The notes beneath the pieces are model-generated. The model saw only the letters and a list, made by a program, of their open reading frames with translations, had not been told where the DNA came from and searched no databases. A stretch of DNA of 61,553 nucleotides, from positions 1 to 61,553 of IMG/VR virus record IMGVR_UViG_3300020147_000004. One strand, 5' to 3'. Positions 5,613 through 48,073 of the stretch are shown here, piece after piece (position 1 is the stretch's first letter; the number at the start of each line of letters is the position of its first letter). The position numbers and the translations under genes were made by a program. This DNA comes from a virus.

Positions 5613-6164
5613 ATGTCCTATCAGTGGTTCAACGAAAACTTCCCGCTCCAAAACACGACCAGCATGAAGGACGTGGCGGTTCTGAACGTCGGGCCTACAT
5701 CGACGGGCATCGACCTTCGCACGCTCTTCGGCAATCGCACTGCGGGCATTTCGAAGCCTTCGGGCACCGTAGATCCAAGTCTCGCCGCGCCCTCCGGTCT
5801 GCCCAACGTGGACGCAGGGCACTACTACACGATCCAAGCCGACGCGGCCGGCCCGTCTCCCACCGGGGTTGGCGCGTGGCGCGCGTACGTTGCGCTCGGC
5901 GCTGGCTTGCGGACGCTCGACCCGAACGCTACCCGGACCGCCTCCGGCGCGTGCTGGGCGCTCAAGGACAGCGACCCGCCCGCACGCTGGAAGATCCCCA
6001 CGGCACGCGAAGTCGGAACGGGCGTCGCGACCATGCCCGCCTACACGACGCTCAACTTCGTGGCTCCGGCCGGTGGCGGTACCGGTTGGCTCAGGATCTA
6101 CCGGTCGAGCCTCGCGGAGGGGCAGAACACGGCGGAGTTTTTGGATCCGTTCGTGAAGTTCTGA
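5613..6164 (+). CDS. Hypothetical virion-operon protein, 183 aa
   Basis: It has an ATG with a clear AGGAGA ribosome site 7 bases upstream. The protein is rich in Gly, Thr, Ala and Pro with short beta-type segments, which suggests a small structural or decoration protein, but I do not recognise a family. It is the last plus-strand gene of the structural operon. Its 3' end overlaps a convergent minus-strand gene by about 74 bases. Confidence 0.75.
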   Translation: MSYQWFNENFPLQNTTSMKDVAVLNVGPTSTGIDLRTLFGNRTAGISKPSGTVDPSLAAPSGLPNVDAGHYYTIQADAAGPSPTGVGAWRAYVALGAGLRTLDPNATRTASGACWALKDSDPPARWKIPTAREVGTGVATMPAYTTLNFVAPAGGGTGWLRIYRSSLAEGQNTAEFLDPFVKF

Positions 6165-6345
6165 TCTGAGCCTTCTTCTCGTCTCGCTGCTGGTACTTGC
6201 GCACGACGCGCCAAACGGCGGCGAACTCGGGCAGTGCTTTGAGCTCCGCCGCGAGCTCCGCCGGTCCCGTCCACGTGCGGCAATCGAGGTAGCCGCCGAC
6301 GAGGTTTTGCCAGGCGAAGTGCTGCCAGCGGTTGAGTGGTTTCAC
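6091..6345 (-). CDS. Small hypothetical protein at end of sugar operon, 84 aa
   Basis: The GTG overlaps the TGA of the dehydratase gene upstream in a GTGA, the coupling rule of this operon. The first ~55 residues look like a real small helical protein with several Trp. The last ~25 residues are encoded antisense to the 3' end of the virion gene at 5613-6164 and are low in complexity. It is the last gene of the leftward sugar operon. No family recognised. Confidence 0.55.
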   Translation of the reverse strand: MKPLNRWQHFAWQNLVGGYLDCRTWTGPAELAAELKALPEFAAVWRVVRKYQQRDEKKAQIRTSRTDPKTPPCSAPPRGSTGRS

Positions 6346-7337
6346 GCGGCTTTCCGCAATGCCGTGAACTCTCCGACCGTCCTTCGCAGACCCTCCTGAA
6401 ACTCCACGCTCCGTCGCCACCCGATCGCCTCGAGCTCGTCGCCCGTGATGGCGTAGCGAAGGTCCGGTGCGAGCCTGCCGGGTGGCCTCTCGACGAGCTG
6501 CCATCGCGGCTGCACGCCCATCATCGCGCCGAGCAGCGTCACGAGCTCGACGTTCGACACTTCGACCTCGCCGCTGATGTTGTACCGGCCGCCCTTGTCG
6601 GTGCCGTCGATGACGGTGCCGCTCGTGAGCACGCGGAGCACGGCGGATGCAGCGTTCTCGGCGTGCGTGTAGAACCGCGAGCAGGGAATGCCGTTGACCG
6701 CGTGGATGTCGATCGTCGCGCCGCGGGAGAGCTTGTCCAGTGCGATGGGAATGAATTTTTCCCCGCACTGCGCCTCACCATAAAAATTGGTCCCGTGTGT
6801 AACGACGACGTGCAGACCGAACGTCTCTGCATACGAGACAGCGAGCTGCTCCGCCGCGCTCTTTGACGCGGCGTACGGATTGCGCGGCGCATGCCTGTCC
6901 CACGGCCGAAAGGACACACCAGCCGGAGCCGGCCCAAACACCTCGTCCGTCGAGAAGTAGAGCAGCTTGCCCCGCGGCGAATGGTGCCGCGCGAACTCCA
7001 AAAGATGCCCCGTCCCGACCACGTTATCCCCGATGAACCCAAGCGGGTCGGAGACGCTGCGGTCCACGTGCGAGCCGGCTGCGAGATGCGCGATGTAGTC
7101 GAAGGGCTGCCGTAGCGCTTCGTTCCCGAGCGCATCGGGCCGAACCGTGGCGCGCAGGTCGTGCCAGACGAACCGGAACCGGTCGGAGCGCGTCGCCGAT
7201 GCGAGGCGGGCGAGCGAAGCGGCCTCGTCGAGCCTGTCGAGAGCGACGACGTGCCAGTCCGTCTCCTCCAGGATATGCCGCACGAGGTGGGCGCCGAGAA
7301 AGCCGGCGGCTCCGGTGATGAGGATTCGGGTCGTCAT
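6342..7337 (-). CDS. NAD-dependent nucleotide-sugar dehydratase, RmlB-like SDR, 331 aa
   Basis: Extended short-chain dehydrogenase. The NAD-binding GAAGFLG lies at residues 9-15. The dehydratase-type Thr-Asp-Glu triad sits in STDEVFG (129-135), and YAASK at 155-159 carries the Tyr and Lys catalytic pair. The HLAAGSHVDRS segment and NV-GT pattern are typical of dTDP-glucose 4,6-dehydratases, which make the 4-keto-6-deoxy sugar at the entry to deoxysugar pathways. The ATG at 7337 has a GGAGG-type ribosome site, so I prefer it to the in-frame start 18 bases upstream. Length is normal for the family. The exact nucleotide and sugar cannot be read from the sequence. Confidence 0.88.
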   Translation of the reverse strand: MTTRILITGAAGFLGAHLVRHILEETDWHVVALDRLDEAASLARLASATRSDRFRFVWHDLRATVRPDALGNEALRQPFDYIAHLAAGSHVDRSVSDPLGFIGDNVVGTGHLLEFARHHSPRGKLLYFSTDEVFGPAPAGVSFRPWDRHAPRNPYAASKSAAEQLAVSYAETFGLHVVVTHGTNFYGEAQCGEKFIPIALDKLSRGATIDIHAVNGIPCSRFYTHAENAASAVLRVLTSGTVIDGTDKGGRYNISGEVEVSNVELVTLLGAMMGVQPRWQLVERPPGRLAPDLRYAITGDELEAIGWRRSVEFQEGLRRTVGEFTALRKAA

Positions 7338-7347
7338 TGTGCCTCCG

Positions 7348-7482
7348 TCAGGCAATCATCCAAATCGTGGCCAGCCCCACTGCGCTCGCGAGGCACACGG
7401 CCATCCGAACCGGCCGCTCCGTGTAGGCGTGGAACAGGCCGAGCAAGAGGAACATCAGGGCAGCGGCGGGGATGAGGTTCAT
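7348..7482 (-). CDS. Small membrane protein, 44 aa
   Basis: It starts 2 bases after the methyltransferase stop and ends 10 bases before the dehydratase start, filling the gap in the operon. It is almost entirely two hydrophobic helices joined by a short charged turn, so probably an inner-membrane hairpin. The function is unknown. It could anchor or assist a glycosyltransferase complex, but that is a guess. Confidence 0.65.
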   Translation of the reverse strand: MNLIPAAALMFLLLGLFHAYTERPVRMAVCLASAVGLATIWMIA

Positions 7483-7484
7483 GG

Positions 7485-8660
7485 CTAGGCGGCCCTCTTT
7501 GGCAAAATCCACTTGCCCCGGTAGTCCGGGAACTTCGCCTGAATCTCCGCCGCATATGGCCAAGCAGAAATCAGCACGGCCTCGGGGTTCACCGACCGCA
7601 GCTTGTCGCTGTGCACAATCGACCAGTTGAGCCCTGGCGTGAACTTGCCGACCTTCATCGGGTTGTCGTCGAACACGCAGACCACGTCACGGGGCGCCAA
7701 GCCCAGAGCGTACACGTACGTCGTGAGCCGAGCCGGAGCGCCGTAGATCGCGAGGCCCTGGCCGAGGTACGGAGCGAGCTCCCGCATCGTCTCTTTCATC
7801 TCGGCGTTGACGCGGGCGGGCCAGTTCTTGAGCAGCTCGGGCAGCCTCTCGCGCTCGTCTGCCACGGCGATGCGCACCGCCGGGCTCGGCAGATTCAACG
7901 TGCTCACGTAGCCGCGAATCGAGCCGCCCTGCGTCGCGACGTGGTGAACGTTGTTCAGGTAGAGGCCGTGCTCCTCGAAAAAGGAGACGAGCGGGGCGAC
8001 GTGGTGATGGCTCATGTGCTCCGCGTAGAGAGTCCCAATCTCGTTCTTCTGGAGCACGTCGAGCAGGTAGGCCACCTCGAACACGAAGACGCCATGGTCG
8101 CCGATGAGCTCCCGCACGCCATCGGCAATCGAATGCAGGTCGTCCGCGTGGGCGAAGGCGTTCAGGCACGTGACGACATCGACGGGACGGCCGAGCGTCT
8201 TTCGCACCTCCCGCGCGATGTCCGGAGTGAAGAACGCCGGGACGGTCAGGCAGCACCGGGCCGAGGCAAGCGCGGCGAGGTTGCAGGCCGGATCTACTCC
8301 GAGCCCGGCCATGCCGGCGTGACGAGCAGCGGCAATCAGCGTCCCGTCGTTCGAGCCGATGTCCACGATGGTTCGGTGTCCGTCGCGGTAGAGCTCGACG
8401 GCGAGGTCCCATAGGTGCGCGCGGAACGAGGCGGCGGTGCCCGAGACGTACGCGTACTCCTCGAACAGCAGCTTCGGGTCCACTACGACCGGGAGCTGGA
8501 CGTGGCCGCATGTCTTGCACTCGGCGAGGTAGAGCGGATACGTCTTCTGCGGACGGGGCGACGCCACGTACTCGTTCGCCAGCGGAGTGTCAGGGAGCGT
8601 GAGGACCGTCTTCAGCGGGCCGGAGCAGAGGCGGCAGTCGGTGCGTTCGGTGTAAGTCAT
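7485..8660 (-). CDS. Sugar C-methyltransferase (NovU/TylCIII type), 391 aa
   Basis: SAM-dependent C-methyltransferase in three parts. An N-terminal zinc site has Cys 9, 12, 48 and 51 (CxxC pairs). The Rossmann SAM site is DIGSNDGT near residue 100. The C-terminal domain is typical of enzymes that add a methyl group to carbon 3 of 4-keto deoxysugars. The YAEHMSHH segment matches the His-rich active-site loop of this family. The likely substrate is an NDP-4-keto-6-deoxysugar such as the product of the neighbouring RmlB-like enzyme. It overlaps the upstream glycosyltransferase by four bases (ATGA). Length is normal. Confidence 0.87.
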   Translation of the reverse strand: MTYTERTDCRLCSGPLKTVLTLPDTPLANEYVASPRPQKTYPLYLAECKTCGHVQLPVVVDPKLLFEEYAYVSGTAASFRAHLWDLAVELYRDGHRTIVDIGSNDGTLIAAARHAGMAGLGVDPACNLAALASARCCLTVPAFFTPDIAREVRKTLGRPVDVVTCLNAFAHADDLHSIADGVRELIGDHGVFVFEVAYLLDVLQKNEIGTLYAEHMSHHHVAPLVSFFEEHGLYLNNVHHVATQGGSIRGYVSTLNLPSPAVRIAVADERERLPELLKNWPARVNAEMKETMRELAPYLGQGLAIYGAPARLTTYVYALGLAPRDVVCVFDDNPMKVGKFTPGLNWSIVHSDKLRSVNPEAVLISAWPYAAEIQAKFPDYRGKWILPKRAA

Positions 8661-9661
8661 GCCGGATGATGAGCGACGCCAATCGCCCTCTCCCTTCGTT
8701 CACGTAGCGACCACTCGGGGTTGACCGGCAGTCGCAGCCCAGCCGCTCGGGTCAGCTCGCACATGCGCTTGTTGTGCGTGATGGGCTTGCCGAGGCGCTT
8801 CACGTTCAGGACAGGTCGTGGGTTCACCACCGTAACCATCCCGGTCTCCGGCGGTCCGTTCTGCCACTCGATGCCGCGCTCTTTCAGCCGATACGAGAAC
8901 TCCAAGTCCTGGTAGCAGTGGCTCTCGTCGTACGCCTCGTCGAGCCCGTTCATCTCCAGGAACAGCTCGGTCGGGAAGCTCTCGTTTTTGAAAGAGCAAA
9001 AATTCCAGTCACCGGGCTTGCGCAGAGTGCACGGTCGGTGCCTGTACGTTATCTCGAGCCCTTCAGGTGACGTGAACGGCTCCGCGAAGATGCTCCACAT
9101 GAACCGGTCGAGCTTGCCGGACTCGAGGTCTGCCACGTAGCGGTCGGTCGCCGCGTTCGTCGCCGCTTCCTGCTCCGCCTCGGGCACTCCCGTCTGGTGG
9201 TAGCCGGGGAACTCGGGGTGCAGCTTCGGGAGTGCGCAGTAGTCGTAGTCGAGGTGGAGCGGGCCGGGGCGCTTGGCTTGAAGCTCGGCGTGCGTTGCGA
9301 GGCAGTCTTTTGCCAGAAATGAGTAGTCGCAAAGCAATACGATGATGTCGCCGCGCGCCTGCTCGATGCCGGTGTTTACGGACCGGCAGTAGGCGGTCGC
9401 GGGGAATGGGTTGGGCCGGGCCGTCACCACGTTGACTGGGAAATGCTTCGCCCGGTTCGCGCTAAGCCGAGGCTCCTCCACGTAGCCCGGCAGCAGGCCA
9501 TTGAAGCTGTTCATGTAGCGCTTCCGGACGTAGGGCGCGCGCCGCTCCAGATTGTCCACGAGCACCAGCTCGAAGTCCCGATACGTCTGCGCTTCGAGGC
9601 CGGCGAAGAGAACGTCGAGCCCGCCGACCCTGTTGGTCGGGACCACCACGCTCAGGCGCAT
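8657..9661 (-). CDS. Family 2 (GT-A) glycosyltransferase, 334 aa
   Basis: The N-terminus has the GT2 nucleotide-binding pattern (SVVVPTNR then LVLVDN). An ARGDIIVLLCD segment corresponds to the strand leading to the metal-binding acidic motif. The C-terminal half has a DEAYDESHCYQDLEFSYR stretch typical of the acceptor-side ED motif. It should transfer a sugar from a nucleotide donor, on the cytoplasmic side. The ATG at 9661 is chosen because residues before it in the longer frame are Arg/Ala-rich and unlike the family. It overlaps the upstream small gene by 10 bases. Confidence 0.85.
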   Translation of the reverse strand: MRLSVVVPTNRVGGLDVLFAGLEAQTYRDFELVLVDNLERRAPYVRKRYMNSFNGLLPGYVEEPRLSANRAKHFPVNVVTARPNPFPATAYCRSVNTGIEQARGDIIVLLCDYSFLAKDCLATHAELQAKRPGPLHLDYDYCALPKLHPEFPGYHQTGVPEAEQEAATNAATDRYVADLESGKLDRFMWSIFAEPFTSPEGLEITYRHRPCTLRKPGDWNFCSFKNESFPTELFLEMNGLDEAYDESHCYQDLEFSYRLKERGIEWQNGPPETGMVTVVNPRPVLNVKRLGKPITHNKRMCELTRAAGLRLPVNPEWSLRERRERAIGVAHHPA

Positions 9662-9906
9662 TCGAGCTCCTCCACGTCCCTCTCCTGCCCGCAAACCCAC
9701 TGCCTGAGCAGCATGTCGCCGCGAAGCAGTCGCGTGTGGCCGCCGAATGCCGCAGCATGCCGCCGCAATCGCTCCGGGTCGTTCGCAGCGGGCCAGAGCG
9801 AGACGCAAGCCCACCGCTCGCCGATGAGCTTCTCGAACTGGTACGGGTGCCGGGTCTGGCGGCGGCGACCGGTTGGTCGGGCGTTGAAGGAGCCGGGGAA
9901 GTTCAT
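9652..9906 (-). CDS. Small hypothetical protein of the sugar operon, 84 aa
   Basis: The ATG shares one base with the TAA of the cupin gene (TAATG). It is a basic, helical small protein with two Cys near the C-terminus. No family recognised. Its frame is kept open between the cupin and GT2 genes with short overlaps on both sides, which supports it as a real operon member. Confidence 0.7.
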   Translation of the reverse strand: MNFPGSFNARPTGRRRQTRHPYQFEKLIGERWACVSLWPAANDPERLRRHAAAFGGHTRLLRGDMLLRQWVCGQERDVEELECA

Positions 9907-10352
9907 TACAAGACCTTGACCCGCACCAAGTCCGCCTCGTGCTCTGCGTGCGTCCGGGTTCGATTGCTCATGGAGACCATGATTGTGAACACCGGGAAGA
10001 ACATCACGTGCTCGCGCTGCGGAGGCGTGAAGAACATGTCGCCCGACTTGAACACTTGCTTCTCGGGGAGGGTCTCTTCGCCAGGCGCGCGCTCGTAGTA
10101 GTGAACCTCGCCGCTCACCACATACAAAGCGTGGGAGTCCTCCCGGTGAAGATGATTTGCCCGCGTAAAGCCAGGCTTCGTGTAGAGAACCGAGACCGTC
10201 CCGGGCACGCCGTTGTGCTTCAGGTTGTCGATTTGGCCGGCTTCGGACTCCCACCCTTCGTCCGCGAGCGGGACTTTGCCGCCGACGGTTTGGTCCCACC
10301 AGAGGGCGGGAGCTGGGGCGGGGTCGGTGTCTCTTCGGTTGTCTTCGGACAT
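9906..10352 (-). CDS. Cupin-fold protein, 148 aa
   Basis: Single cupin barrel. The first motif, with HLHREDSHALYVVSGEVHYY, supplies the His/Glu metal ligands. The second ends in FFTPPQREHVMFF. Such small cupins occur in polysaccharide clusters beside glycosyltransferases, as sugar-binding or isomerase-like proteins. The reaction here is not known. The ATG at 10352 has a strong GAGGAGAAA ribosome site. Its 5' 133 bases overlap the 3' end of the upstream glycosyltransferase in another frame. Confidence 0.82.
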   Translation of the reverse strand: MSEDNRRDTDPAPAPALWWDQTVGGKVPLADEGWESEAGQIDNLKHNGVPGTVSVLYTKPGFTRANHLHREDSHALYVVSGEVHYYERAPGEETLPEKQVFKSGDMFFTPPQREHVMFFPVFTIMVSMSNRTRTHAEHEADLVRVKVL

Positions 10353-11653
10353 GTCGTTTCTCCTCGGCTCGCAATCAACTCGGCAATCCTCTCGGCAGTC
10401 CGCCGCCACGTCAGCCGCTCGGCAAGCGCTCCCGCCTTCGCGTTCAGCTCGTCGCGGTACGTCTCGTCCGTGAGCGCGCGGATCACCCGGTCACGCCAGA
10501 ACGGCACCCAGTTGCCATCGGGCTCTTTGCCCTTGAACATCTCCGTCGGCTGCAAGTCGGAGTAGACCGCCGCGAGCGCGTCGCAGTCGGTGATGATGGG
10601 GCAGGCACGCGCGGCGCAGCACTCGAGGATGGAGCACGAGAACCCTTCGCTCCACGTCGTCGTGTCGCACGGGTAGGCCTGGACTTCCGCCTGCGCCATC
10701 TCCCTTTCGATGGTCTCGCGGCTCACGGAATCGCGCAGCGTCACGTCGAGACCGCCGTGCTCTTTGAAGCGGCGGAGGCACTCTTCGACGTAGTTCGCGC
10801 GGGCCCGGAGTGGCTCAATCGGCGGAAAGTAGGGCGTCCCGTCGAAGCCGCGCAGCCACGGCTCGAGGCGGTAGAAGATATGCAAACTGGCGTGCGGGAC
10901 GGCGCGCTTGATTGCGGGCCATTCTTGGAGGAGCCAGTGGAGTCCGCGGTCGGGCGAAGAGCAGTAAATTACGCGGCCGGGGATCTTCTCGAATGGCTTG
11001 GTCTCGGGGTACCAGTGCCCGGGCCCGTCCGTCCGGAAGCGCAGGCCGCATGGCGGGCACCACGGCTCCTCGGGGCGGTCAGTCTGACGCACCCAGAGCG
11101 AGCCGCCGCACTTCGAGCAGGTGCCTTTGATGTCGTACCGCCACGGGTCGCACCCAAGCTCGACGACCGTCCACTTGTCCGGCTCCGGCTCGTACAGCGC
11201 TTTCCCGTCCGGGAACTCGGGGCCGGTCTCGACCTTGCGCCATTCGGGATTGTTGAACAGCTCCTCCGCGTGCGCCGCGCTGGGCGAGCAGAACAGGTCC
11301 ACCCACTCGTGAAAGCCAACGCGGTTGTGCGTCGTCTGGTTCAGCCAGTACATGCAGACGCGGAACGATGTCGCCGGCACGCCACGGAGAAGGTCGGGCT
11401 CGTTGATTGCGATGACCGCGTCGAACTCACCCATCGGCGAGTCGATCGGCTCAATCTTCACGCCGTGCCATTCCTTGTCGTTGGACACGGTCCGCAAAAC
11501 GACTTCATGCCCCAGCGCAGCCAGCTCCTCCGCAATCCGCACCGCCCCGAGCTCGCTTCCGGTCAGGCCGCGGGGGTCGGACCAGAGCGAACCGAAGTCC
11601 ATGGTCTTTCTGAAGGCCAAACAGAGGCCGCCGAAGAGGACTGCGATTTTCAC
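10220..11653 (-). CDS. GT4-like glycosyltransferase with zinc-ribbon insertion, 477 aa
   Basis: The second half matches GT-B family 4 enzymes: a GRVIYCSSPDRGLHWLLQ donor-domain segment and, near the C-terminus, a SEGFSCSILE stretch that corresponds to the E-x7-E region. The GTG overlaps the TGA of the 811-residue enzyme (GTGA), so the 24 residues before it are left out. Residues 179-202 hold a CxxC-16-CxxC zinc ribbon inserted between the two lobes, which I do not know from ordinary GT4 enzymes. The last ~45 residues are low-complexity Pro/Thr/Lys/Ser and overlap the cupin gene. The SSPDRGLH-LLE-WPAI region is shared with the neighbour, so the two are paralogues. Confidence 0.82.
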   Translation of the reverse strand: MKIAVLFGGLCLAFRKTMDFGSLWSDPRGLTGSELGAVRIAEELAALGHEVVLRTVSNDKEWHGVKIEPIDSPMGEFDAVIAINEPDLLRGVPATSFRVCMYWLNQTTHNRVGFHEWVDLFCSPSAAHAEELFNNPEWRKVETGPEFPDGKALYEPEPDKWTVVELGCDPWRYDIKGTCSKCGGSLWVRQTDRPEEPWCPPCGLRFRTDGPGHWYPETKPFEKIPGRVIYCSSPDRGLHWLLQEWPAIKRAVPHASLHIFYRLEPWLRGFDGTPYFPPIEPLRARANYVEECLRRFKEHGGLDVTLRDSVSRETIEREMAQAEVQAYPCDTTTWSEGFSCSILECCAARACPIITDCDALAAVYSDLQPTEMFKGKEPDGNWVPFWRDRVIRALTDETYRDELNAKAGALAERLTWRRTAERIAELIASRGETTCPKTTEETPTPPQLPPSGGTKPSAAKSRSRTKGGSPKPAKSTT

Positions 11654-14085
11654 GCCGCCCCCTTGAACGCCGGCACGACGTTGTCCTTCACGTCCAGCAG
11701 CACCCCGCGCAGCATCCGGTCCCACTGCTCAGCCAGCGAATCGAGATTGAAGTTCGCGCGGGCGTAGAGCTGCAGGTCTTCGCGCGACATGCGCTCCCAC
11801 TCGCCGCGGAGCGCCTTCACCATCTCGGCCACGAACGCCGCCTTGTAGCTCTCCGGTTGCGCCGCTCGATGGTCCGGAATGAACCCGTCGAGCAGCACGC
11901 CGCGGGTGCTCACCGTCTCGGCAAGGGCGGCCAGCGCAGAAGAGACGATGTAGAGGCCGGCGGACTGGGCTTCAGCCGCACCGATACAGCTCGTCTCGGT
12001 AAAGCCCGTCGGGTAGCCCCAGACGCCAGCGCCGAGCATCTCCCTCGCCAGCTCCTCCTGATTCACCCGTCCGCGCAGGAACACCCCGGGCAAAGTCCTC
12101 GCGAGGTGCTTAATGCGCCGGAGCAGCGTGGAGAGCTCCGCATCGTTCGTCGCCGCGATGGTCTTCTCGATGTTGTCCATCCCGTAGAAGACGTGCAGCT
12201 CCGCGTCGGGCACCTCAGCGCGAATCGCCGGCCAGCATTCGAGCAGCGTGTGCAGTCCGCGGTCAGGAGAGCTCGAGTAGATGACCTTGTGCGGGTTGCG
12301 CTCCACGTCGATCGCAAACCGCTTCGGGTCCACCCCGTTCCGCGTCTGATGGATCTTCTCCTTCGGCAGGAACGGATAGACCTGCGCCAGCACTTCGCGG
12401 TGCCACTCGCTGAGCGCCAGCACGCGGTCGAACCGCAATGCGCGCCTAGTGTCGAGCGCCTCGCCGCAATGCACGTCGTGGACGTAGAGCAGCCGGCACC
12501 CGGCCTTGACCTGGAACTCGTCGTCGATTGCCGCCGGCTGCCGCGACGAGATCAACACGTCGCACTCAGTGCCGGCGTAGCGCGACGAATCGAGCCACTC
12601 GACGCCTTCGAACAAGCCCTCTTGCCCCGCGGCGCACTGCCCGAAAACCCGGACGCGGTGCCCGAGCTTGCGCAGCCGCCTGGACAGCTCCCACACCATC
12701 GTTTCCGAGCCGCCCATCCCGCCCGCCATGAGCGTCTGCGGGTTCCAGGGCTCGAGCCCGTAGCCGACGAAGAAGACGATATCGAGGTAGCCCGGCTCTT
12801 TCAGCTGCGGAGCGGGCGGAGCGGACGGAGCCGGCGGGAGCAGCTGATCCACGCTGCCGCCCTTCAGCAGGTGCGCAATCATCTGCGCCGACTGCGGGGG
12901 CAGCTTCCCGTACTGGTGCAGCTTGTCGAGCCCGCTCATTACAGAGCGCGAGGACAGCTCCGTTTCGCAGAGCTGCGAAACGCCCGTGAGGAACTCGTCG
13001 CCCGGGAGACCTTCGAGACCCTTCTGACATGCCTCGAGCGCGCCTTCGACGTTGCCGAGCTTCAGCAGCACGTCGGCGAGGATGCGGCGCACTTCGAACC
13101 GCTTCATCGGGTTCACGAAGAGCACCGTGTCCGCCTCGGGAATGGTCAGCCCGAGCTGCGCAAAGTGCGCCGCGCGCCGGATGTTGTAGTCCGTCTCGAC
13201 GCCCTGCCGCGCGAGCTCGTAGAAGCACTCCGCGAGAACCCAATACGGCTCGGGCCAGGCCTTAACGACCATGGACTTGAGCGCCCAGTCGATCGCAGAC
13301 TCAAAATCGCCCATCTGCTGGTAGATGCGCGCGACCTCGAAGTGAGCGAGGCACTTCTCGTCGTGCCAGTTCGAAAGCTCGATGTACCGGCGCAGCGTCA
13401 TCAGCGCCTTGCCCCACTCGCCATGCCGCGAGAGCTCGACGCCGAAGTAATAGAGCGCGCGAACGTCGCCCTCCACGACACGCCCAACGTACTTGCGCAG
13501 GATGCGAAGGTTCCGCTGCGGGTCGGGCGCCTTGGCCGACAGGTGCTTGCGATGCATCCGCTTCACGAGCGTCGTGGGCGGCATCGTCACGACCTGGACG
13601 CCGGGCTTGGGCATCAGCACCTCGTGAACCGGCACTTGCCACGTGAAGTTTTTGGCAGGGACCGCGAGGTTTTCCCGCTGGTGCAGGCAGATGACGCGGC
13701 CTTGATTGTCGTACTCGTACTCGTACGGGATGAGCCACTGCGCGGTCTCGGCCGGCCGTTGCGCGATGAGCGTACGCAGGTGCTCCCCGCCGACAAGCAC
13801 GTCGTCCGCGTCGATCCAAAACTGCGCGCACTCGGGGCCGATGAGGCTGAGCGCGTGATTCCTTGCGAGAGCGAAGTCCTCGATCTGCTCGGTCGCCGGG
13901 TCGTTGCAGGAGAGAAATACGTCGAAGCGGTCGGCGTAGCGGCGGGCGATGTCGGGGGAGTTGTCTACGCTGCCGGTATCGACGACAACGAGACCATCCA
14001 CGTGCGGGCGGACGGACTGCAGGCAGGCTTCGAGCGTGGCGCTATCATCGCGGCAAAGCACCGCGGCGACGATCGGAGTGGTCAT
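11650..14085 (-). CDS. Bifunctional GT2-TPR-GT4 glycosyltransferase, 811 aa
   Basis: Three regions are visible. Residues 1-200 are a GT2 domain with VVVDTGSVDNS and the metal-binding IDADD at 91-95. Residues ~205-390 are helical repeats of TPR type (paired helices with A/Y/G spacing). Residues ~435-811 are a GT-B domain with GGMGGSETMVWELSRRL and IYSSSPDRGLHTLLE. One chain may add two sugars in sequence, or the TPR part may dock the acceptor. The ATG overlaps the upstream TGA in an ATGA. It is the largest gene of the operon. Confidence 0.88.
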   Translation of the reverse strand: MTTPIVAAVLCRDDSATLEACLQSVRPHVDGLVVVDTGSVDNSPDIARRYADRFDVFLSCNDPATEQIEDFALARNHALSLIGPECAQFWIDADDVLVGGEHLRTLIAQRPAETAQWLIPYEYEYDNQGRVICLHQRENLAVPAKNFTWQVPVHEVLMPKPGVQVVTMPPTTLVKRMHRKHLSAKAPDPQRNLRILRKYVGRVVEGDVRALYYFGVELSRHGEWGKALMTLRRYIELSNWHDEKCLAHFEVARIYQQMGDFESAIDWALKSMVVKAWPEPYWVLAECFYELARQGVETDYNIRRAAHFAQLGLTIPEADTVLFVNPMKRFEVRRILADVLLKLGNVEGALEACQKGLEGLPGDEFLTGVSQLCETELSSRSVMSGLDKLHQYGKLPPQSAQMIAHLLKGGSVDQLLPPAPSAPPAPQLKEPGYLDIVFFVGYGLEPWNPQTLMAGGMGGSETMVWELSRRLRKLGHRVRVFGQCAAGQEGLFEGVEWLDSSRYAGTECDVLISSRQPAAIDDEFQVKAGCRLLYVHDVHCGEALDTRRALRFDRVLALSEWHREVLAQVYPFLPKEKIHQTRNGVDPKRFAIDVERNPHKVIYSSSPDRGLHTLLECWPAIRAEVPDAELHVFYGMDNIEKTIAATNDAELSTLLRRIKHLARTLPGVFLRGRVNQEELAREMLGAGVWGYPTGFTETSCIGAAEAQSAGLYIVSSALAALAETVSTRGVLLDGFIPDHRAAQPESYKAAFVAEMVKALRGEWERMSREDLQLYARANFNLDSLAEQWDRMLRGVLLDVKDNVVPAFKGAA

Positions 14086-15008
14086 GACTTGAGAAACTCC
14101 CTGAGCCCATCTTCGAGCTTCACCGCCGGCTCGTAGCCGAGCTCATAGCGCGCGCGCCGGATGTCGGGGCAGCGCCGATTCGGATCCCCACCGCTCGGCC
14201 AGTCGTCAGGCGGCTCGATGACCTCGACTTTGACGCCAGCCATCTCCGCCACCGCCAGCATCGAGACTTCCGGCTTGTCGTTCCCGATGTTGTAGGCAAC
14301 GCCCGGCCTACCCGCGACGAGTGCTTGCAAGCACCCGCGCACCGTGTCCGTCACGTAGCAGAAAGTGCGCGTCTGCCGGCCGGTACCGTAGATGCGGAGC
14401 GGCTCGCCGAGCCTCTTCGCGCGCCTAAGGTTGGGCATAAACCGCCGGTCGTCGTCGCTCATGCCCGGGCCGTACGCGTTGAACAGCCGGACCACGACGG
14501 CCTGGACGCCCTTGCGCGCGTAGATACTGCACAGCGTCTCGCCCACGCGCTTGCCTTCGTCGTACGGCGCGCGGTCGCCCATCGTGTCGAGAGCCCCTAA
14601 GTAGGATTCGGACGTGGGTACCTCGGTCGGGTCGCCGTAGATCTCCGAGCTCGAGAAGAACAGCACCCGAGCGCCCCAGAGCTCCGCGAGCCGCAGCACG
14701 TTTTCCGTGCCCTCGGCGCTGGCTCTCAAGGCGCCGAGCGGATTGCGCCGGTAGTGCCAAGGCGAGGCGATCCCCGCGGCATGCAGGATGTAGTCGTACG
14801 GCTGGGCCTTGCGGAACGAATGCACGAAGTCCGCGGCCGTCACGTCGCAGCCCTCGTCGCCGCTCCGGATGTCCAGACCGAGGCAATCGACCCGGAGCGC
14901 TTCGATCGCGTCGCAAAGGTGCGAACCGAGGAAGCCTCCGGATCCGGTCACCAGAACGGACTTGCCGTCCAAGGCGGAGGTGACGGAGTCGGGGAGTGCG
15001 AAGTTCAC
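14082..15008 (-). CDS. UDP-glucuronate decarboxylase-like SDR, 308 aa
   Basis: The NAD site TGSGGFLGSH lies at residues 21-30. An FFSSSEIYGDPTEVP segment, the YDEGKR Tyr/Lys pair near residue 150, FNAYGPGM and the GTGRQTRTFCYVTD stretch are the landmarks of UDP-glucuronic acid decarboxylases (UDP-xylose synthases), which turn UDP-GlcA into UDP-xylose. Related epimerases share part of this pattern, so the activity is likely but not certain. The GTG at 15008 overlaps the TGA of the membrane protein gene (GTGA). The longer frame would add 27 unlike residues. Confidence 0.86.
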   Translation of the reverse strand: MNFALPDSVTSALDGKSVLVTGSGGFLGSHLCDAIEALRVDCLGLDIRSGDEGCDVTAADFVHSFRKAQPYDYILHAAGIASPWHYRRNPLGALRASAEGTENVLRLAELWGARVLFFSSSEIYGDPTEVPTSESYLGALDTMGDRAPYDEGKRVGETLCSIYARKGVQAVVVRLFNAYGPGMSDDDRRFMPNLRRAKRLGEPLRIYGTGRQTRTFCYVTDTVRGCLQALVAGRPGVAYNIGNDKPEVSMLAVAEMAGVKVEVIEPPDDWPSGGDPNRRCPDIRRARYELGYEPAVKLEDGLREFLKS

Positions 15009-15313
15009 GATGTGACCCACAGCAGGAACCAGCCGCTGGCCACCGCGAACAAGGGCCTGAGGAGCATCTTCGCGAGCGGGTGCCACCACGGCTCGCCCTC
15101 GTCGCGCTTCGGCTGCGAGTGATAGGTCAGGAAGTACACGACCATTGCGAAGCCGATCGCGCCCACCATTGTCAGCGGCGGCACGCCCAGCGGCACGATG
15201 AACCAGCCCCAGAGCTTGCGTAGCGCCCAGCCGTTCAAGACCGTGCTGACCACGACAATCACCGGGAGCGACAGGAGCAGCGCAACACCGGCAGCCTTCT
15301 TATCGTCGTCCAT
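15005..15313 (-). CDS. Small integral membrane protein, 102 aa
   Basis: About three transmembrane helices are visible: residues ~8-32, ~37-62 and a shorter one near the C-terminus, with a hydrophilic loop holding Lys/Arg/Asp between the second and third. The ATG at 15313 shares a base with the upstream TGA. It belongs to the sugar operon by position and overlap. It may help in lipid-linked sugar transfer or flipping, but no family is recognised. Confidence 0.75.
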   Translation of the reverse strand: MDDDKKAAGVALLLSLPVIVVVSTVLNGWALRKLWGWFIVPLGVPPLTMVGAIGFAMVVYFLTYHSQPKRDEGEPWWHPLAKMLLRPLFAVASGWFLLWVTS

Positions 15314-15684
15314 CACTTCTCCACCATGTCGTCGAAGAACCACGCGAGCTCTCGGAACGCCGATGTGATGACGGCTCCGTCCGGATAGAACAGATAGCCA
15401 CCGTCTCCCCACCACGTGTGGCGGCATTCGCGCAAGTCGCCCAACGCCCCCTCTCCGTGGAAAATCGTGAAGACCTTCTCGTCAGAGCCGTCGAGTTCGC
15501 GTTCGGCAAATGTCAGAACGGCGAACTTGAGCCAGAAGGCGCTGGTCCGGTTCAGTGCCAGGTACCCGTCGCCCGCCAGCCGGCGCACTTCGAACTTCTG
15601 ACGGATGGCGTCCAGCGGATACATAGGGTCGCCGTTGTCGTCGAACTCCGGCTCGCCCAGCCAATCGACTTTGGGCCCGGTCAT
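15313..15684 (-). CDS. Hypothetical protein of the sugar operon, 123 aa
   Basis: The ATG overlaps the TGA of the paratose-epimerase-like gene (ATGA). It is an acidic, aromatic-rich protein with mixed alpha/beta character and many Trp/Phe/Tyr in the last 50 residues. I do not recognise a family. It could be a small accessory or immunity-type protein. Nothing in it suggests membrane or secretion. Confidence 0.7.
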   Translation of the reverse strand: MTGPKVDWLGEPEFDDNGDPMYPLDAIRQKFEVRRLAGDGYLALNRTSAFWLKFAVLTFAERELDGSDEKVFTIFHGEGALGDLRECRHTWWGDGGYLFYPDGAVITSAFRELAWFFDDMVEK

Positions 15685-16652
15685 TTCTCCCCTGCGTAGA
15701 TCTGCGCCAACCGCGCCGCGTTCTCTCTCGCCCAGTCGTAGATGACGCGCATGCCGATCGGCGTGGAGACCTTCGGAGCCCACCCGGTCGCCGCAAGCAG
15801 CGCAAACGTGTCCGTCACGAACAGCTGGTCTTCGTGCTTCCGCCCCGGCCCTTGCCGCGATGGCGACTTCGAGCCGAACTGGCGGAGAATGTCGTAGGCG
15901 CCTGCAACGCTGATGACGTTCGCGGGGCCACCGCCGAGGTTGAAGACCTTGCCACTCAGCTGCTCGATGTTCTCCCACCCGAGTAGGGCAGCCTCGGCAA
16001 CATCCGAAGCAAAGAGCATGTCGCGACGCTGCGAGCCGTCGCCCTGGATTTCGATGGGCCAGCCGAGCGCAGCGCGGATGCAGAATGCCGTAAGCCAGCC
16101 GTGTCTAGCGCCGTGAGGCGCCGCGTTGCCGAACAGATTGGAGCAGCGGTACGTGACGAGGGGGATGCCGTAGCTGCGCGCGTAGGCCATGCACGCCATG
16201 CTCTGCGCGGCCTTGCTCGCGGCGTATGGCTCGTCAGGCTCGAGCGGGAAGGACTCATCGGCGCCGCAATCGGTGATGCCGTGGAGCCCGTACGGCTTCA
16301 CACTCGAAAGCACGACCGTCGGCTTCGGGTTCTTCCGCAGCGCCTCGAGCAGCGCGATTGTCCCGTCCACGTTCCGCTGCCAATCGTCGAGCGGCTCCTC
16401 CGCGCTGTACGGGATGCCCGTTGAAGCAGCGGCATGGAACACCCGGTCGCAACCCGCTACGATGTCCGCGAGCACGCGCGGAGTGAACCGCTCGAGTCGT
16501 AGGTCGTAGTAGACCGGCCCCGGAAAGCTGTTGAAGTAGTGCCGCGCAGCGTTGCCGTCGTCGATGATGGTGACCGCGTGGCCCTCGGCGTGGAGGCGCT
16601 TGGCGAAGAGGGACGCGACTAGCCCTCGGCCCCCCGTGATCAGGTATCGCAT
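15681..16652 (-). CDS. CDP-paratose 2-epimerase-like SDR, 323 aa
   Basis: Extended SDR with the NAD site GGRGLVAS at residues 7-14 (third Gly replaced, as in some family members). YAASK at 143-147 carries the catalytic Tyr and Lys. A GDGSQRRDMLFASDVAEA stretch resembles tyvelose/paratose epimerases and related nucleotide-sugar epimerases. Likely role: inversion of a ring carbon of an NDP-deoxysugar. The ATG at 16652 shares a base with the TGA of the regulator gene (TGATG). A TTG three bases earlier is less likely. Confidence 0.84.
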   Translation of the reverse strand: MRYLITGGRGLVASLFAKRLHAEGHAVTIIDDGNAARHYFNSFPGPVYYDLRLERFTPRVLADIVAGCDRVFHAAASTGIPYSAEEPLDDWQRNVDGTIALLEALRKNPKPTVVLSSVKPYGLHGITDCGADESFPLEPDEPYAASKAAQSMACMAYARSYGIPLVTYRCSNLFGNAAPHGARHGWLTAFCIRAALGWPIEIQGDGSQRRDMLFASDVAEAALLGWENIEQLSGKVFNLGGGPANVISVAGAYDILRQFGSKSPSRQGPGRKHEDQLFVTDTFALLAATGWAPKVSTPIGMRVIYDWARENAARLAQIYAGEK

Positions 16653-16927
16653 CAAAACCCCGCCGCTTTCTTTATCGGCAGAACCACCGCCGCACCGCTC
16701 GGATTAGGCCCGAAGGCCAGCCCGGCCCCGCGACCGACGACTGGGCCACCTTGCCACATTGCGCCACCGGTTGGCACGGCTTGCCACATTGCCTCGACCC
16801 CGACCTTCAGCGCCTCGCGGGCGATCCGGCTGACCGACAGAAACGGCATTCTCTCGCGCAATTCGGCCAACTTCGCCAGCGTCTCATCGCTGATGGGAGC
16901 GTTGAACCGACGCGTAGGGAGTGCCAT
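16652..16927 (-). CDS. Ribbon-helix-helix-type regulator leading the sugar operon, 91 aa
   Basis: Residues 5-45 have the pattern of a ribbon-helix-helix DNA-binding domain: a short basic strand (TRRFNAPIS), then two helices. After it comes a tail with two MWQ repeats and a Gly/Pro-rich end. It is the first gene of the minus-strand sugar operon and its ATG lies inside a 16-bp inverted repeat. Autoregulation of the operon is a natural inference. The ATG at 16927 is preferred because the longer frame reads through the promoter region. Confidence 0.72.
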   Translation of the reverse strand: MALPTRRFNAPISDETLAKLAELRERMPFLSVSRIAREALKVGVEAMWQAVPTGGAMWQGGPVVGRGAGLAFGPNPSGAAVVLPIKKAAGF

Positions 16928-16994
16928 ACGTGGCACATAATGTCTCATAACGGCACACTTGAACGCAAGCACATTCGTGTGGCAAAATCGACCG
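16921..16994. promoter_or_regulatory. Divergent promoter/operator region between sugar operon and envelope cassette
   Basis: This AT-richer gap separates two divergent operons. It holds the inverted repeat GTGCCA-TACG-TGGCAC (16921-16936), overlapping the regulator's start codon, and further half-site-like GGCACA (16952-16957) and TGTGGCAA (16978-16985). A possible rightward promoter is TTGAAC (16959-16964), an 18-bp gap, and CAAAAT (16983-16988). That would place transcription start almost on the ATG at 16995. Binding by the ribbon-helix-helix protein is inferred. Confidence 0.55.
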
Positions 16995-17222
16995 ATGAGC
17001 CGAAATTGCACCACCGTCCCGATGGTCGGCCTGGTCGTTCCACTGTGCATGGCTGCCACGGCAACACTGCTGACAGGGTGCCCGTCCCAACCCGAGACGC
17101 CCCCGTGTGACGCCGCGACGCTCGCGCAAATCACAGCGACCTGCCCGAGCGAAGAGGAGTGCAATCGGCTGCTCGATGAGCGGCAATCGACCTGCTCGAA
17201 GCGAATCGAGGCGGACAAATGA
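16995..17222 (+). CDS. Small lipoprotein, 75 aa
   Basis: N-terminal signal of lipoprotein type: a basic start, a hydrophobic core and the lipobox LLTGC, giving a mature lipidated Cys near residue 29. The rest is short, hydrophilic and contains several Cys. It is first in a plus-strand cassette of six overlapping small genes. An outer-membrane lipoprotein in such a place could be an o-spanin (Rz1-like), but it lacks a Pro-rich body, so this is only possible. The ATG at 16995 follows the promoter. The upstream in-frame start would disrupt the signal. Confidence 0.72.
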   Translation: MSRNCTTVPMVGLVVPLCMAATATLLTGCPSQPETPPCDAATLAQITATCPSEEECNRLLDERQSTCSKRIEADK

Positions 17223-17401
17223 AGGCTCTCGAGACGGTCGCCAACATCTTGGCGAAGCTCCCGCCCGAGGCCGTCAAAGGCTTCGTCGATCTGCTGAATG
17301 CTCTGTTGGCGGGCCGCCCCGACAAAGCCGAACGACTCGCGCGACTCACCGCTGAGACGCTCGCCGCAAAAGAGATCGTCAAGCGCAGGTTCAGCAAGTG
17401 A
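17219..17401 (+). CDS. Small helical protein, 60 aa
   Basis: The ATG overlaps the lipoprotein stop (ATGA). It is an amphipathic helical protein rich in Ala, Leu, Lys and Glu with no membrane segment of full length. No family recognised. Confidence 0.65.
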   Translation: MKALETVANILAKLPPEAVKGFVDLLNALLAGRPDKAERLARLTAETLAAKEIVKRRFSK

Positions 17402-42437: not shown

Positions 42438-43925
42438 CTGCCCGCCACCTTCGCGACTCTCCAAGTACTCGACGCTGCGCTCCAGAGCGGCGGCCATCAC
42501 GGCCTCACGCCGTTTTGGTCGGACGTATTGGAGCGGCTCTACTCGTCGGGAAAGACCAATTTGGTCGCCCGCGTCGGTCGTGGTGGCTGCAAGTCGCACA
42601 CGAGCACGAAGGTCGCGACGAACGAGGTGCTGTTCGGCGATTGGCGCGTCCCACGCGGCGAGGTCCACTATTGGGCGTTCGTCTCGGCGCGCAAGGACGA
42701 GGCCGAGCAGCGCGTCGTTTTGATTGAGAGCTTCCTCCGCGTGCTCGGCGTGAAGTTCGAGGCGAAGGGGAACACGATCACGCTGAAGGACCGGCCGCGC
42801 GGCTTCAAGGTCTTCGCGTGCAACGTCGGCGCGGTCAGCGGCTTCCGCTGCATCGGCTACTCGGCGGACGAGCTTGCCAAGTGGAACGTCGAGGGCGTGA
42901 ACCCGTCGGCGGAGGTGTGCGCGTCGCTGAACGCGATGACGGTGACGCATCCGGGCTCGAAGCGCCTGCTTATCTCCTCGCCGCTCGGCATGACCGACTA
43001 CCATGCGACGCGGTTCGAGCGTGGCGACGACGAGACGCAGATGGTCGCAAGGGCGGCGACGTGGGAGGCAAACCCGAGCGTCACGGAGGAGCAGACGCAC
43101 GAGCTCGAGCCGGACGATCGCGTGTGGTCGCGCGAGTACGCGGCTGTCCCTGGCTCGGGCATCACGGACGACTGGTTCGGGGCGGGCGTCGGGCTCTCGG
43201 CTACGAAGGAAGTGCCGCCATGGAAACCGTGGATGCGTACTTGGATTGCCCTGGACCCGGCGTTCGCTCAGGACCGATTCGGCTGGGCGGTGTGTACGTC
43301 GATTCAGGCTGCATCGGGTAGGCTCACGACGATTCACGAGGTGGGCAGCTGGAAGCCGGACCGGTCGCCGGGGGAGATGGCGGCTCGAGTGCGCTCGGAG
43401 CTCTGCGCCAAGTACGGCGTGGGCGAGGACGACACGAAGCGGGTGTTCACGGACCAGTACGAGGGCTATTCGTTCACCGAGCTCGCCAGGAGAGAAGGGC
43501 TTTTCTGCGAAGTCGTCCCCTGGACCGGCGGCGCAGGCGAGACGAGCAAGGCCACGCGGTTCAAAAACGTGCGGATGGCCATGCTCAGCGGTGAATTCCG
43601 CATGCCTGACGAGGTCGGATGGATCAAACGGCTGCGCTCGGTGCGCGGCGTGCTGCTCTCGAGTGGGTCGGAGCGCATCGAGGTGCCCCGCACGTTCGAC
43701 GGCCACGGCGACGACGTGTCCGCGATGGTGATGGCCGCCTCGATGGCCTTGTCGGTGCCGGCGCAACCCGTCTACGTCGAGCCCGTTCGGCCCGGGTCGC
43801 CTGAATGGCTCGCGGGAGAGCAGGCGCGGATGCGGGAGGAGGCGGCGAAGCGGGTACGTGAAAGGCAGGCGGTGCGGGGGCAGCGGGCGGGGAGTTTGGA
43901 GGCGAGGATTAGGGCCCTCCGCTAG
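42438..43925 (+). CDS. terL: Large terminase subunit, start uncertain, ~495 aa
   Basis: ATPase with Walker A-like VGRGGCKSH, RCIGYSADELAKWN as the Walker B/acidic region, LLISSPLG as motif III, and a nuclease part with LDPAFAQDR and a distal TDQYEG and GHGDD. It packages DNA into the procapsid. The in-frame stretch from the TGA at 42426 has no ATG or GTG. TTG at 42528 would leave only ~20 residues before Walker A and omit the TPFWSDVLERLY segment that looks native. CTG 42438 is a possible start, or the TGA may be read through. Confidence 0.8.
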   Translation: MPATFATLQVLDAALQSGGHHGLTPFWSDVLERLYSSGKTNLVARVGRGGCKSHTSTKVATNEVLFGDWRVPRGEVHYWAFVSARKDEAEQRVVLIESFLRVLGVKFEAKGNTITLKDRPRGFKVFACNVGAVSGFRCIGYSADELAKWNVEGVNPSAEVCASLNAMTVTHPGSKRLLISSPLGMTDYHATRFERGDDETQMVARAATWEANPSVTEEQTHELEPDDRVWSREYAAVPGSGITDDWFGAGVGLSATKEVPPWKPWMRTWIALDPAFAQDRFGWAVCTSIQAASGRLTTIHEVGSWKPDRSPGEMAARVRSELCAKYGVGEDDTKRVFTDQYEGYSFTELARREGLFCEVVPWTGGAGETSKATRFKNVRMAMLSGEFRMPDEVGWIKRLRSVRGVLLSSGSERIEVPRTFDGHGDDVSAMVMAASMALSVPAQPVYVEPVRPGSPEWLAGEQARMREEAAKRVRERQAVRGQRAGSLEARIRALR

Positions 43926-46069: not shown

Positions 46070-48073
46070 TTGGCCGTCCGACGCAACCACAAGCGCATCG
46101 AGTTACCATCGCAGCCCTGGTACGACCTGCCGGAAGACGAGCAGGGTGCCGCGGTCGAGCGGCTCGTGCGCGACTACCGCACGGCTCAGGCACCGCGACG
46201 TAGCCGCTACATCCGCAACCTCGAGCTCTACGAGGGCCGGCCGATGAGCGGATACTCTGCGTACTCGTACTGCGAGGACGACCTGATGCCGTTCGACCGC
46301 GAGCGGCTCCGGCTCATCCGTAGCGCGGTCTCCTCAGCGGTAGCGAACATCTACGCGCCGCAGAAGCCGAAGCCGCAGTTTCAGACGCTCGGGGCGACGT
46401 GGGCGCAGCGGCGCAAGGCGTACAAGCTCGACAAGATCTGCGAAGGCATCCTGAACCAGCGTCAGGGCCGGTGGATCAACGGCTGGGCGATGATGATTGA
46501 CGCGGGGGTGGAGGCTTCGAACCAGGGCGTCGCGGCCGTCATGGTCACGGCGAACAAGGCGCAGGGGCGCATCGAGCACGAGCTCGTGCCGCTGCCGGAT
46601 ATTTTCACGGACCCAGCCGAAGGTCGTAACCCGCGGAACTTTTTCTGTCGCCTGCCGATTGCCGAAGACGCGGCGTGCGCCATGGCCGCAGCGAACTACG
46701 GGCACGGCAAGCAATACGAGACCATCAAGCGCGCAATCGAAGGCGCGAAGCCCTACGACTGGTTCGGCAATCCGAATCGCGCGACGGTGCCCCGAGCTGT
46801 CCGCGTCGTGGAGATCGACTACGCGTGGCACATGCCGGCCAGCAAAGACGAGCCGGGCCACTGGTGCGCGCAGATAGGTGGCGTGCGCATCGATGGCGGC
46901 GAGTGGACCGCGCCGGCCCCGCCATTCGTGTTCTTGCTTTGGGAGCCGTGGCGGGACGGCTTCTGGGCTTCAGGCATTGCGGATGAGGGCGGTTCGCAGT
47001 CGCAGGAAATCGACGACCTCGATATGCGGCTGATGATTCGGGAGAAGATCGCTTCGGGTCTGAAGTGGTTCTACCAGAAGGAGACCATCAACCCTGATGA
47101 CCTGATGGTGAACGACCCGACGGTCGGCATTCCCTACGAAGGCAACGTACCGCCGACGCCCGCCAACCCGATGCCGTTCCACCCGATGGAGCTCGACTAC
47201 CTGAAGTTCAAGGTTCAGGGCTTCTGGGATTCAATCGGCATCTCGCAGGTCTCAGCGGCAGCGCGGCGCGAGCAGGGCGTCTCGAGCGGCGTCGCGATTC
47301 AGACGCTCAACGACACGAAGAGCGGCCGGCAGCTGGTCAAAGGCCAGCGCTACGAGCAGGCGTTCGTGGACCTGGCGCACCAATACGTCTGGCGCCTGCG
47401 CGAGCTCGCCGCCGACGATCCGAACTTCGCCGTGAAGTGGGCCGGGAAGTCGCTGATTCGTAGCTACAAGTGGAAAGACGCCGACGTAGAGGACGACGCG
47501 TTCTCGACGACCGTCGCACCCGCATCGGCCTTCCCGCACGACCCGGCCGGACGCCTCGACTACGTGCAGGCCATGTACAAGGCCGGGCTCGTTTCGCAGG
47601 AGACGGCCAAGCAGCTGATGAACTGGCCGGACCTCGAGTCCGAGATGAGCATGGAAAACGCCGAGACCGAGTATCTCGACATGCTCATCGAGCGCTACCT
47701 CGACGCGGATGCAGACACGTGGGGAGCCGGCGACTACCAACCGCCCGAAGCATTCATTATCAACAAGGTCGGCGCGATGCGTCGCGTGGCGTCTGCGTGG
47801 TTCCGCGCGCGCATCGACCAAGCGATGCTGCCCGAGAGCGAGCGCGAAGCGGCGGAGTTCAGCATCTCGCTACTGACTCGCTACATGCAGGAGCTGGACG
47901 CGCTGATGCAGCCGCCAGCGCCACCGCCGGGGGCAGCAGCTGCTCCTCCTGGCCCTGGTGCGCCCCCGCCGCAGCTCCCCGGCATGCTCCCGCCCGGTGG
48001 TCCCGGTGGGCCGCCGAGTCCGCAGATGCTTCCCCCGCCGTTGCCGGTGGGACCGCCGCAACCTGGAATTTGA
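46070..48073 (+). CDS. Portal protein, 667 aa
   Basis: Large podovirus-type portal (head-tail connector dodecamer). Patterns include RLRLIRSAVSSAVANIYAPQKPKPQF near the N-terminus, SQSQEIDDLDMRLMIREK and FWDSIGISQVSAAARREQGVSSGVAIQTLND in the core, typical of the portal wing and stem. The last ~55 residues are Pro/Gly-rich. The start is TTG 46070 with no clear ribosome site; no ATG is better. It forms the DNA entry ring and docks the terminase. Confidence 0.82.
   Translation: MAVRRNHKRIELPSQPWYDLPEDEQGAAVERLVRDYRTAQAPRRSRYIRNLELYEGRPMSGYSAYSYCEDDLMPFDRERLRLIRSAVSSAVANIYAPQKPKPQFQTLGATWAQRRKAYKLDKICEGILNQRQGRWINGWAMMIDAGVEASNQGVAAVMVTANKAQGRIEHELVPLPDIFTDPAEGRNPRNFFCRLPIAEDAACAMAAANYGHGKQYETIKRAIEGAKPYDWFGNPNRATVPRAVRVVEIDYAWHMPASKDEPGHWCAQIGGVRIDGGEWTAPAPPFVFLLWEPWRDGFWASGIADEGGSQSQEIDDLDMRLMIREKIASGLKWFYQKETINPDDLMVNDPTVGIPYEGNVPPTPANPMPFHPMELDYLKFKVQGFWDSIGISQVSAAARREQGVSSGVAIQTLNDTKSGRQLVKGQRYEQAFVDLAHQYVWRLRELAADDPNFAVKWAGKSLIRSYKWKDADVEDDAFSTTVAPASAFPHDPAGRLDYVQAMYKAGLVSQETAKQLMNWPDLESEMSMENAETEYLDMLIERYLDADADTWGAGDYQPPEAFIINKVGAMRRVASAWFRARIDQAMLPESEREAAEFSISLLTRYMQELDALMQPPAPPPGAAAAPPGPGAPPPQLPGMLPPGGPGGPPSPQMLPPPLPVGPPQPGI

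Follow-up and report, generated by a model that had tools for sequence, protein, structure and literature searches.

A conserved phage gene cassette that may build a C-methyl-branched deoxysugar and attach it to virion proteins

Chloroviruses and Mimivirus perform autonomous glycosylation of their capsids, and the capsid glycan of PBCV-1 is made by the virus (PMC4691112). Glycans are also present on capsid and tail-tube proteins of mycobacteriophages, which encode glycosyltransferases (GTs), as reported by Freeman et al. 2023 (cited in PMC12619734). Here we describe a sugar cassette of 14 genes at 6091-16927 of the virus record IMGVR_UViG_3300020147_000004 (referred to as the window, i.e. the whole stretch of 61,553 bases that was analysed). 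We lean towards reading it as a phage glycan cassette with proteins as acceptor and virion proteins as the likeliest target. As in chloroviruses and Mimivirus, nucleotide-sugar enzymes and transferases are both encoded by the virus; unlike those eukaryotic giant viruses, whose enzymes are different, the carrier here is a 61 kb tailed phage. The mycobacteriophages reportedly have few transferases, whereas the present cassette is also predicted to make the sugar and C-methylate it, and has a fusion of GT2, tetratricopeptide repeat (TPR) and GT4 domains. No description of this cassette was found in the open-licence papers searched.

The original prediction had reported 14 tightly packed minus-strand genes, and all of these open reading frames (ORFs) are present. 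They are as follows, SDR standing for short-chain dehydrogenase/reductase and NDP for nucleoside diphosphate:

g01, 16652..16927, minus: small, ribbon-helix-helix-like by eye only; possible regulator
g02, 15681..16652, minus: SDR; closest solved relatives are CDP-tyvelose 2-epimerases
g03, 15313..15684, minus: 123 aa, no family match
g04, 15005..15313, minus: 102 aa small membrane protein with two hydrophobic, membrane-like segments
g05, 14082..15008, minus: SDR, UDP-glucuronate decarboxylase (UXS)-like
g06, 11650..14085, minus: GT2-TPR-GT4 fusion, the key transferase; cassette core
g07, 10220..11653, minus: GT4-like glycosyltransferase; cassette core
g08, 9906..10352, minus: cupin, nearest fold the CapF cupin domain; cassette core
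g09, 9652..9906, minus: 84 aa, no match found
g10, 8657..9661, minus: divergent GT2-like transferase, weak Pfam and NCBIfam matches
g11, 7485..8660, minus: predicted sugar 3-C-methyltransferase of the D-mycarose 3-C-methyltransferase/TcaB9 type; cassette core
g12, 7348..7482, minus: 44 aa membrane-like peptide
g13, 6342..7337, minus: RmlB-like NDP-sugar 4,6-dehydratase; cassette core
g14, 6091..6345, minus: 84 aa, the weakest gene call

Neighbouring genes overlap by 1, 4 or 10 nt or are separated by gaps of 2 and 10 nt, apart from g07 and g08, which share 133 nt; g04 and g05 would share 16 nt, the other long overlap, only if g05 were started at 15020 rather than 15008. Gene g14 overlaps the 3' end of a convergent virion gene and was passed over by a coding-score gene caller. 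No Pfam family was found for g01, g03, g04 (GtrA included), g09 and g12, nor any NCBIfam match for g01, and g03, g09, g12 and g14 have no counterpart in the relatives compared. A scan for promoters and terminators gave no signal exceeding that of shuffled sequence. As for the sugar-enzyme calls of the original prediction, those for g02, g05, g13, g11, g08, g07 and g06 stand in Pfam, while that for g10 is a weak GT2 match below the cut-off (E 0.002).

The sugar-synthesis part begins with three extended SDRs of PF01370 (g02, E 1e-44; g05, E 3e-47; g13, E 7e-42). In a comparison with solved structures g13 aligns to RmlB (E 1e-46), and the motifs TGxxGxxG, S-T-D-E-V and YxxxK of an extended SDR of RmlB type are intact as TGAAGFLG, STDEVFG and YAASK and conserved among virion-lineage members (motifs of the cassette enzymes are conserved in 11-14 members). 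The best match of g05 is UXS1 (E 1.7e-53), far ahead of all others, and the UXS active-site motifs SSSEIYG and YDEGK are retained, so that a UDP-glucuronate decarboxylase-like activity is predicted; homologues of g05 occur in the cassettes of large phages and of one circular contig, G030:C32. In g02 the third Gly of the NAD motif is replaced by Ala, and this SDR has no close counterpart in the relatives' conserved core. Moreover, g11 possesses the domains PF08484 and PF08421 (Methyltransf_13/14) with zinc-binding cysteines, an S-adenosylmethionine domain and the YxEH catalytic motif of TylCIII/TcaB9-type enzymes, and profile comparison with the PDB matches it to D-mycarose 3-C-methyltransferase (E 5e-72) and TcaB9 (E 3e-57); it is predicted to methylate C3 of an NDP-4-keto-6-deoxysugar. 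The cupin g08 keeps the pattern HxHxxDxH...HExDxVR, and its predicted model (predicted local distance difference test, pLDDT, 83) is closest in fold to CapF (E 5e-9), whose cupin domain epimerises a 4-keto-6-deoxy sugar; g08 thus probably epimerises a pathway intermediate.

By the logic of a pathway with dehydratase, epimerase-like cupin, C3-methyltransferase and reductase, the product is most likely an NDP-activated 6-deoxy-3-C-methyl hexose. A host-supplied precursor of the NDP-glucose type would be converted by g13 to a 4-keto-6-deoxy sugar, which the cupin would probably epimerise and g11 would methylate at C3. A ketoreductase would then complete the branched 6-deoxysugar. A plausible candidate is the Gfo/Idh/MocA oxidoreductase encoded within or close to the cassette of most virion-lineage relatives; in the window g02 or g05 may stand in. 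The original claim that the block could in principle build and transfer a branched deoxysugar is borne out by these gene assignments.

The transferase part is dominated by g06, which consists of a GT2 domain (DADD), TPR helices and a GT4 domain (GGSE, SSPDRG, E...E). The GT2 DXD motif is present as DADD/DGDD in all 11 members, and most catalytic residues are kept in the 11 homologues, which are about 40-47% identical to g06, with Gln in place of the last Glu of the GT4 E...E in one of them (L008). In a PDB profile search g06 matches GmaR (E 2e-24) and SunS (E 3e-13), and its AlphaFold model (pLDDT 85, predicted template modelling score 0.56) is matched first by SunS/ThuS and next by SPINDLY and OGT. 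Sequence and fold, a GT2 with DXD followed by TPR helices, therefore agree with SunS/GmaR, while 22.5 bits against the NCBIfam SunS equivalog cut-off of 350 bits suggest a protein that works like SunS and is not a member of that family. The transferase g06 resembles cytosolic protein glycosyltransferases (GmaR, SunS, SPINDLY/OGT). SunS and GmaR are GT2 plus TPR and FlmG is TPR plus GT-B, all with cytosolic polypeptide acceptors as proposed for g06; unlike SunS/ThuS, GmaR and FlmG, g06 adds a second transferase domain, GT4, in one chain. In FlmG of Caulobacter the TPR repeats recruit the protein acceptor (PMC7591256). The GT4-like match of g07 is upheld by Pfam, homologues of g10 are present in L009 and G030:C32, and no membrane helix was found in any transferase of the block. 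The TPR superhelix of g06 would bind a polypeptide, and g06, g07 and g10 would start and extend the glycan in the cytosol.

We collected relatives by profile searches with g06, g07, g08, g11 and the portal-position protein, the last of which defines the virion lineage. As the original prediction had proposed, gene order was compared with other phages. As a result, the core order g06-g07-g08-g11-SDR proved common to the window and ten virion-lineage records, namely G003, G006, G009, G010, G016, G018, G019, G021, G025 and the circular phage contig G030:C32. The cassette of G016 is split by contig ends, G020 holds a cut copy, and G018 is identical to G024 in the proteins compared. Six large contigs of 81-428 kb have this core order too (L151, L153, L154, L156, L159 and L166; L159 and L160 are identical), their SDR being g05-like or distantly g13-like. 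All viral loci found with this cupin (18/18) contain the cassette or a cut copy. Since the order is conserved at about 35-50% protein identity across many distinct contigs, the 14-gene block cannot be put down to chance.

Pairwise identity in the portal correlates with that in g06, g07, g08, g11 and g13 (Spearman 0.52-0.61, permutation p 0.0015-0.007), the corresponding value for the major capsid protein (MCP) being 0.67. Because core-enzyme divergence follows portal divergence, sequence comparison marks the cassette as an old lineage trait, mostly of shared descent, rather than a recent moron. Its presence in large phages without the lineage head protein (those tested) implies old horizontal transfer. 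In the large contigs, searches for the hallmarks PF03237 and PF07068, the latter without a positive control, came out negative with few exceptions, so these contigs are taken as viral from IMG/VR and, for three of them, from tail-fibre matches next to the cassette. A host polysaccharide locus as origin was considered and rejected: in the one phylum searched, that of a metagenome-assembled genome (MAG) discussed below, the g06 profile reached E <= 1e-60 in 1 of 201 genomes, and this single match lies on a circular 59-kb phage contig. G030:C32 (L148-L150) is a circular phage genome of 59,107 bp with a 100-bp end overlap and the full cassette inside an Anaerolineae MAG, where it is probably either mis-binned or a hint at the host. 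A prophage revealing the host was sought with g06 and the portal, and none was found beyond the MAG contig.

With its ends identical over 127 bases, the window closes to a circle and is a complete phage genome of about 61.4 kb; the same 127-base overlap also closes G018, G022 and G025, and the repeat is most simply an assembler overlap. The original prediction had pointed to a chimera with host DNA, together with relatives lacking the block, and to failing active-site residues as what would undo it. One relative, G022, has no block, and an assembly chimera is rejected by the circular closure, the uniform G+C of 65% in the block and the rest of the genome, and the same cassette in independent phages; the catalytic motifs of the transferases and SDRs are intact. 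As had been stated, the block adjoins virion genes; its regulator and the neighbouring lysis cassette, also named in the original prediction, are candidates. The genome contains an integrase. The features in question are:

5613..6164, plus: final virion-block gene, conserved among relatives
32913-34298: integrase, 16 kb from the sugar block
42528..43925, plus: terminase large subunit (TerL), weak PHROG match
46070..48073, plus: portal-position protein, named from genome position and size; no PHROG match
49648..50901, plus: major head protein, with a head protein match

In most lineage members the cassette lies just upstream of cpn10-TerL-portal-scaffold-MCP and in the same direction. It lies between TerL and portal in G030:C32 and downstream of the ejection genes, co-directional, in G003; the cassette of the window occupies the G003-type place but runs opposite to the virion genes. 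In the large phages, a collagen-like ORF stands just upstream on the same strand in 7/10 cassette loci, compared with 2/20 other 20-kb windows of the same phages, chosen non-randomly by the analyst (Fisher p 0.002); with the duplicate merged, the count is 6/9 (p 0.004). Those collagen-like ORFs that were tested match tail-fibre families. In L151, L156, L159, L166, L011 and L013 very long collagen-like fibre ORFs are immediately upstream of glycosyltransferase cassettes, those of L011 and L013 having only g06, g05 and g07 relatives.

Several other genes were observed around these loci. Cpn10 (GroES-like) is encoded at 44939-45454 of the window, between terminase and portal, is kept in nearly all relatives and is their usual next landmark after the sugar cassette. 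Patatin-like phospholipase genes directly follow the cassette at L156:14044-14907 and L166:13268-14137. A GH25 lysozyme (L016:8771-9553) is found in G003 between the cassette and the ejection genes; of the window's ORFs in the matching region, those tested (17219-17401 and 17562-18314) show no recognisable family. A small plus-strand ORF at 16959-17222, with an LTGC lipobox-like signal, starts very near the point where the oppositely oriented sugar operon begins and is possibly a spanin-like lipoprotein or part of a lysis region. In a presence/absence comparison aimed at the acceptor, the homologue of 5613-6164 was not detected in G022, though a shorter ORF occupies that place. The genome also encodes a helicase/primase, a single-stranded DNA-binding protein, an exonuclease and a stand-alone DNA methyltransferase (34295-34984), which directly follows the integrase.

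Because the cassette is linked to virion and fibre genes, virion proteins are the likeliest acceptor. Progeny particles would then bear the glycan, which could protect them, adjust their adsorption or diversify their surface. Several observations weigh against this. The relative G022 is complete at 37 kb and encodes virion genes of the same kind but no cassette, being the sole such record among those of at least 28 kb with the portal; the cassette is therefore dispensable for the virion, yet usual in the lineage. Late co-expression is not assured in the window, since the cassette is antiparallel to the virion genes there, and the integrase means that expression from the prophage is possible. 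Collagen-like ORFs also occur near other phage glycosyltransferases (11/29 loci from the same search), so that the link concerns phage glycosyltransferases in general. On the enzyme side, g13 scores 218.6 bits, below the cut-off of 365.1 bits for RmlB in NCBIfam TIGR01181, and is thus by sequence RmlB-like, not classed as true RmlB; the Gfo/Idh/MocA ketoreductase of most relatives was not detected in the window; and the global template modelling scores of g06 against OGT/SPY are low, about 0.3. We infer the acceptor protein and the glycan from the genes, and likewise the exact sugar, the reaction order and the benefit.

The main competing target is the surface of the host. In an infected cell or lysogen, altered lipopolysaccharide, capsule or exopolysaccharide, leading to phage exclusion or serotype change, would fit the integrase, the combination of RmlB-type enzymes and glycosyltransferases typical of O-antigen loci, and the membrane-like proteins g04 and g12, found only in this phage; sugar clusters of cyanophages are usually so interpreted (PMC9602691). 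Phage gtr serotype-conversion cassettes likewise carry glycosyltransferases, but no counterpart of their gtrA flippase, gtrB bactoprenol transferase or multi-pass GtrC was detected in the block, which has no GtrA match and no membrane-bound transferase, and family searches recognised no flippase, polymerase or ligase among the 14 genes. Nor is the block next to an integrase or att site as gtr cassettes are: the lineage links the module to virion genes, and in the window 16 kb lie between it and the integrase. With these membrane parts not found and g06 similar to protein glycosyltransferases, a virion or host cytosolic protein is the better acceptor, and we regard surface modification as unlikely. 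The lysogenic-conversion framing of the original prediction thus survives in part: conversion is possible, but the block is not a one-off moron, its core being inherited with virion genes and shared with large phages. Its size had also been thought unusual for a conversion locus; multi-gene sugar clusters are known in other phages too. An example is cyanophage S-SCSM1, with its large set of NDP-sugar enzymes and glycosyltransferases (PMC9602691). The RmlB-like enzyme of that phage is 41% identical to g13, but its cluster is GDP-mannose/fucose-centred and interpreted as modifying the host cell wall (PMC9602691), and S-SCSM1 is not among the records matching g11.

If the acceptor is a protein, it might also belong to the host, e.g. 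flagellin, pilin or another cytosolic or secreted protein, whose modification would hide a receptor or disable motility. GmaR, the PDB match of g06, and FlmG (PMC7591256) are indeed GT plus TPR proteins that act as flagellin transferases. We nevertheless judge this improbable given the long co-divergence with virion genes and the adjacency to virion and fibre genes, and one shared host target is less likely because the cassette spans phages of very different genome sizes and G+C. The least probable acceptor by far is DNA, which the original prediction had also listed. Phage glycosyltransferases often modify DNA, hypermodifying bases against restriction, and this phage encodes a DNA methyltransferase, but a hydroxymethylase of the PF00303 thymidylate-synthase type, from which such modification would start, was not detected in the complete genome with positive controls, the cassette is distant from replication genes, and the TPR scaffold of g06 is of the peptide-binding kind.

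A partial parallel is found in Caudoviricetes sp. ctKR88 (MW202524, Manatee Spring), where a GT2-TPR-GT4 homologue of 28% identity lies two genes past the major capsid gene and is followed by further transferases and methyltransferases; unlike in the window, no C-methyltransferase, cupin or RmlB core was found. Virion glycosylation in its fullest form would be a self-contained phage cassette placing a C-methyl-branched deoxysugar on virion proteins (collagen-like fibres in large phages) through the three-domain GT2-TPR-GT4 enzyme, a proposal that we put forward tentatively, as somewhat short of probable. With the same reserve, its carriers would comprise a lineage with genomes of about 40-60 kb and large phages reaching about 430 kb, and the cassette would be for bacterial viruses what autonomous capsid glycosylation is for chloroviruses.

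Annotation usually treats phage glycosyltransferases singly, as DNA-modifying or serotype-converting. A fixed-order cassette that is inherited with virion genes and shared across very different phages offers a testable case of a self-made sugar on proteins. If virion proteins are indeed the target, this would bear on particle stability, adsorption and immune recognition of phages, as well as on enzyme tools to make and transfer branched deoxysugars.

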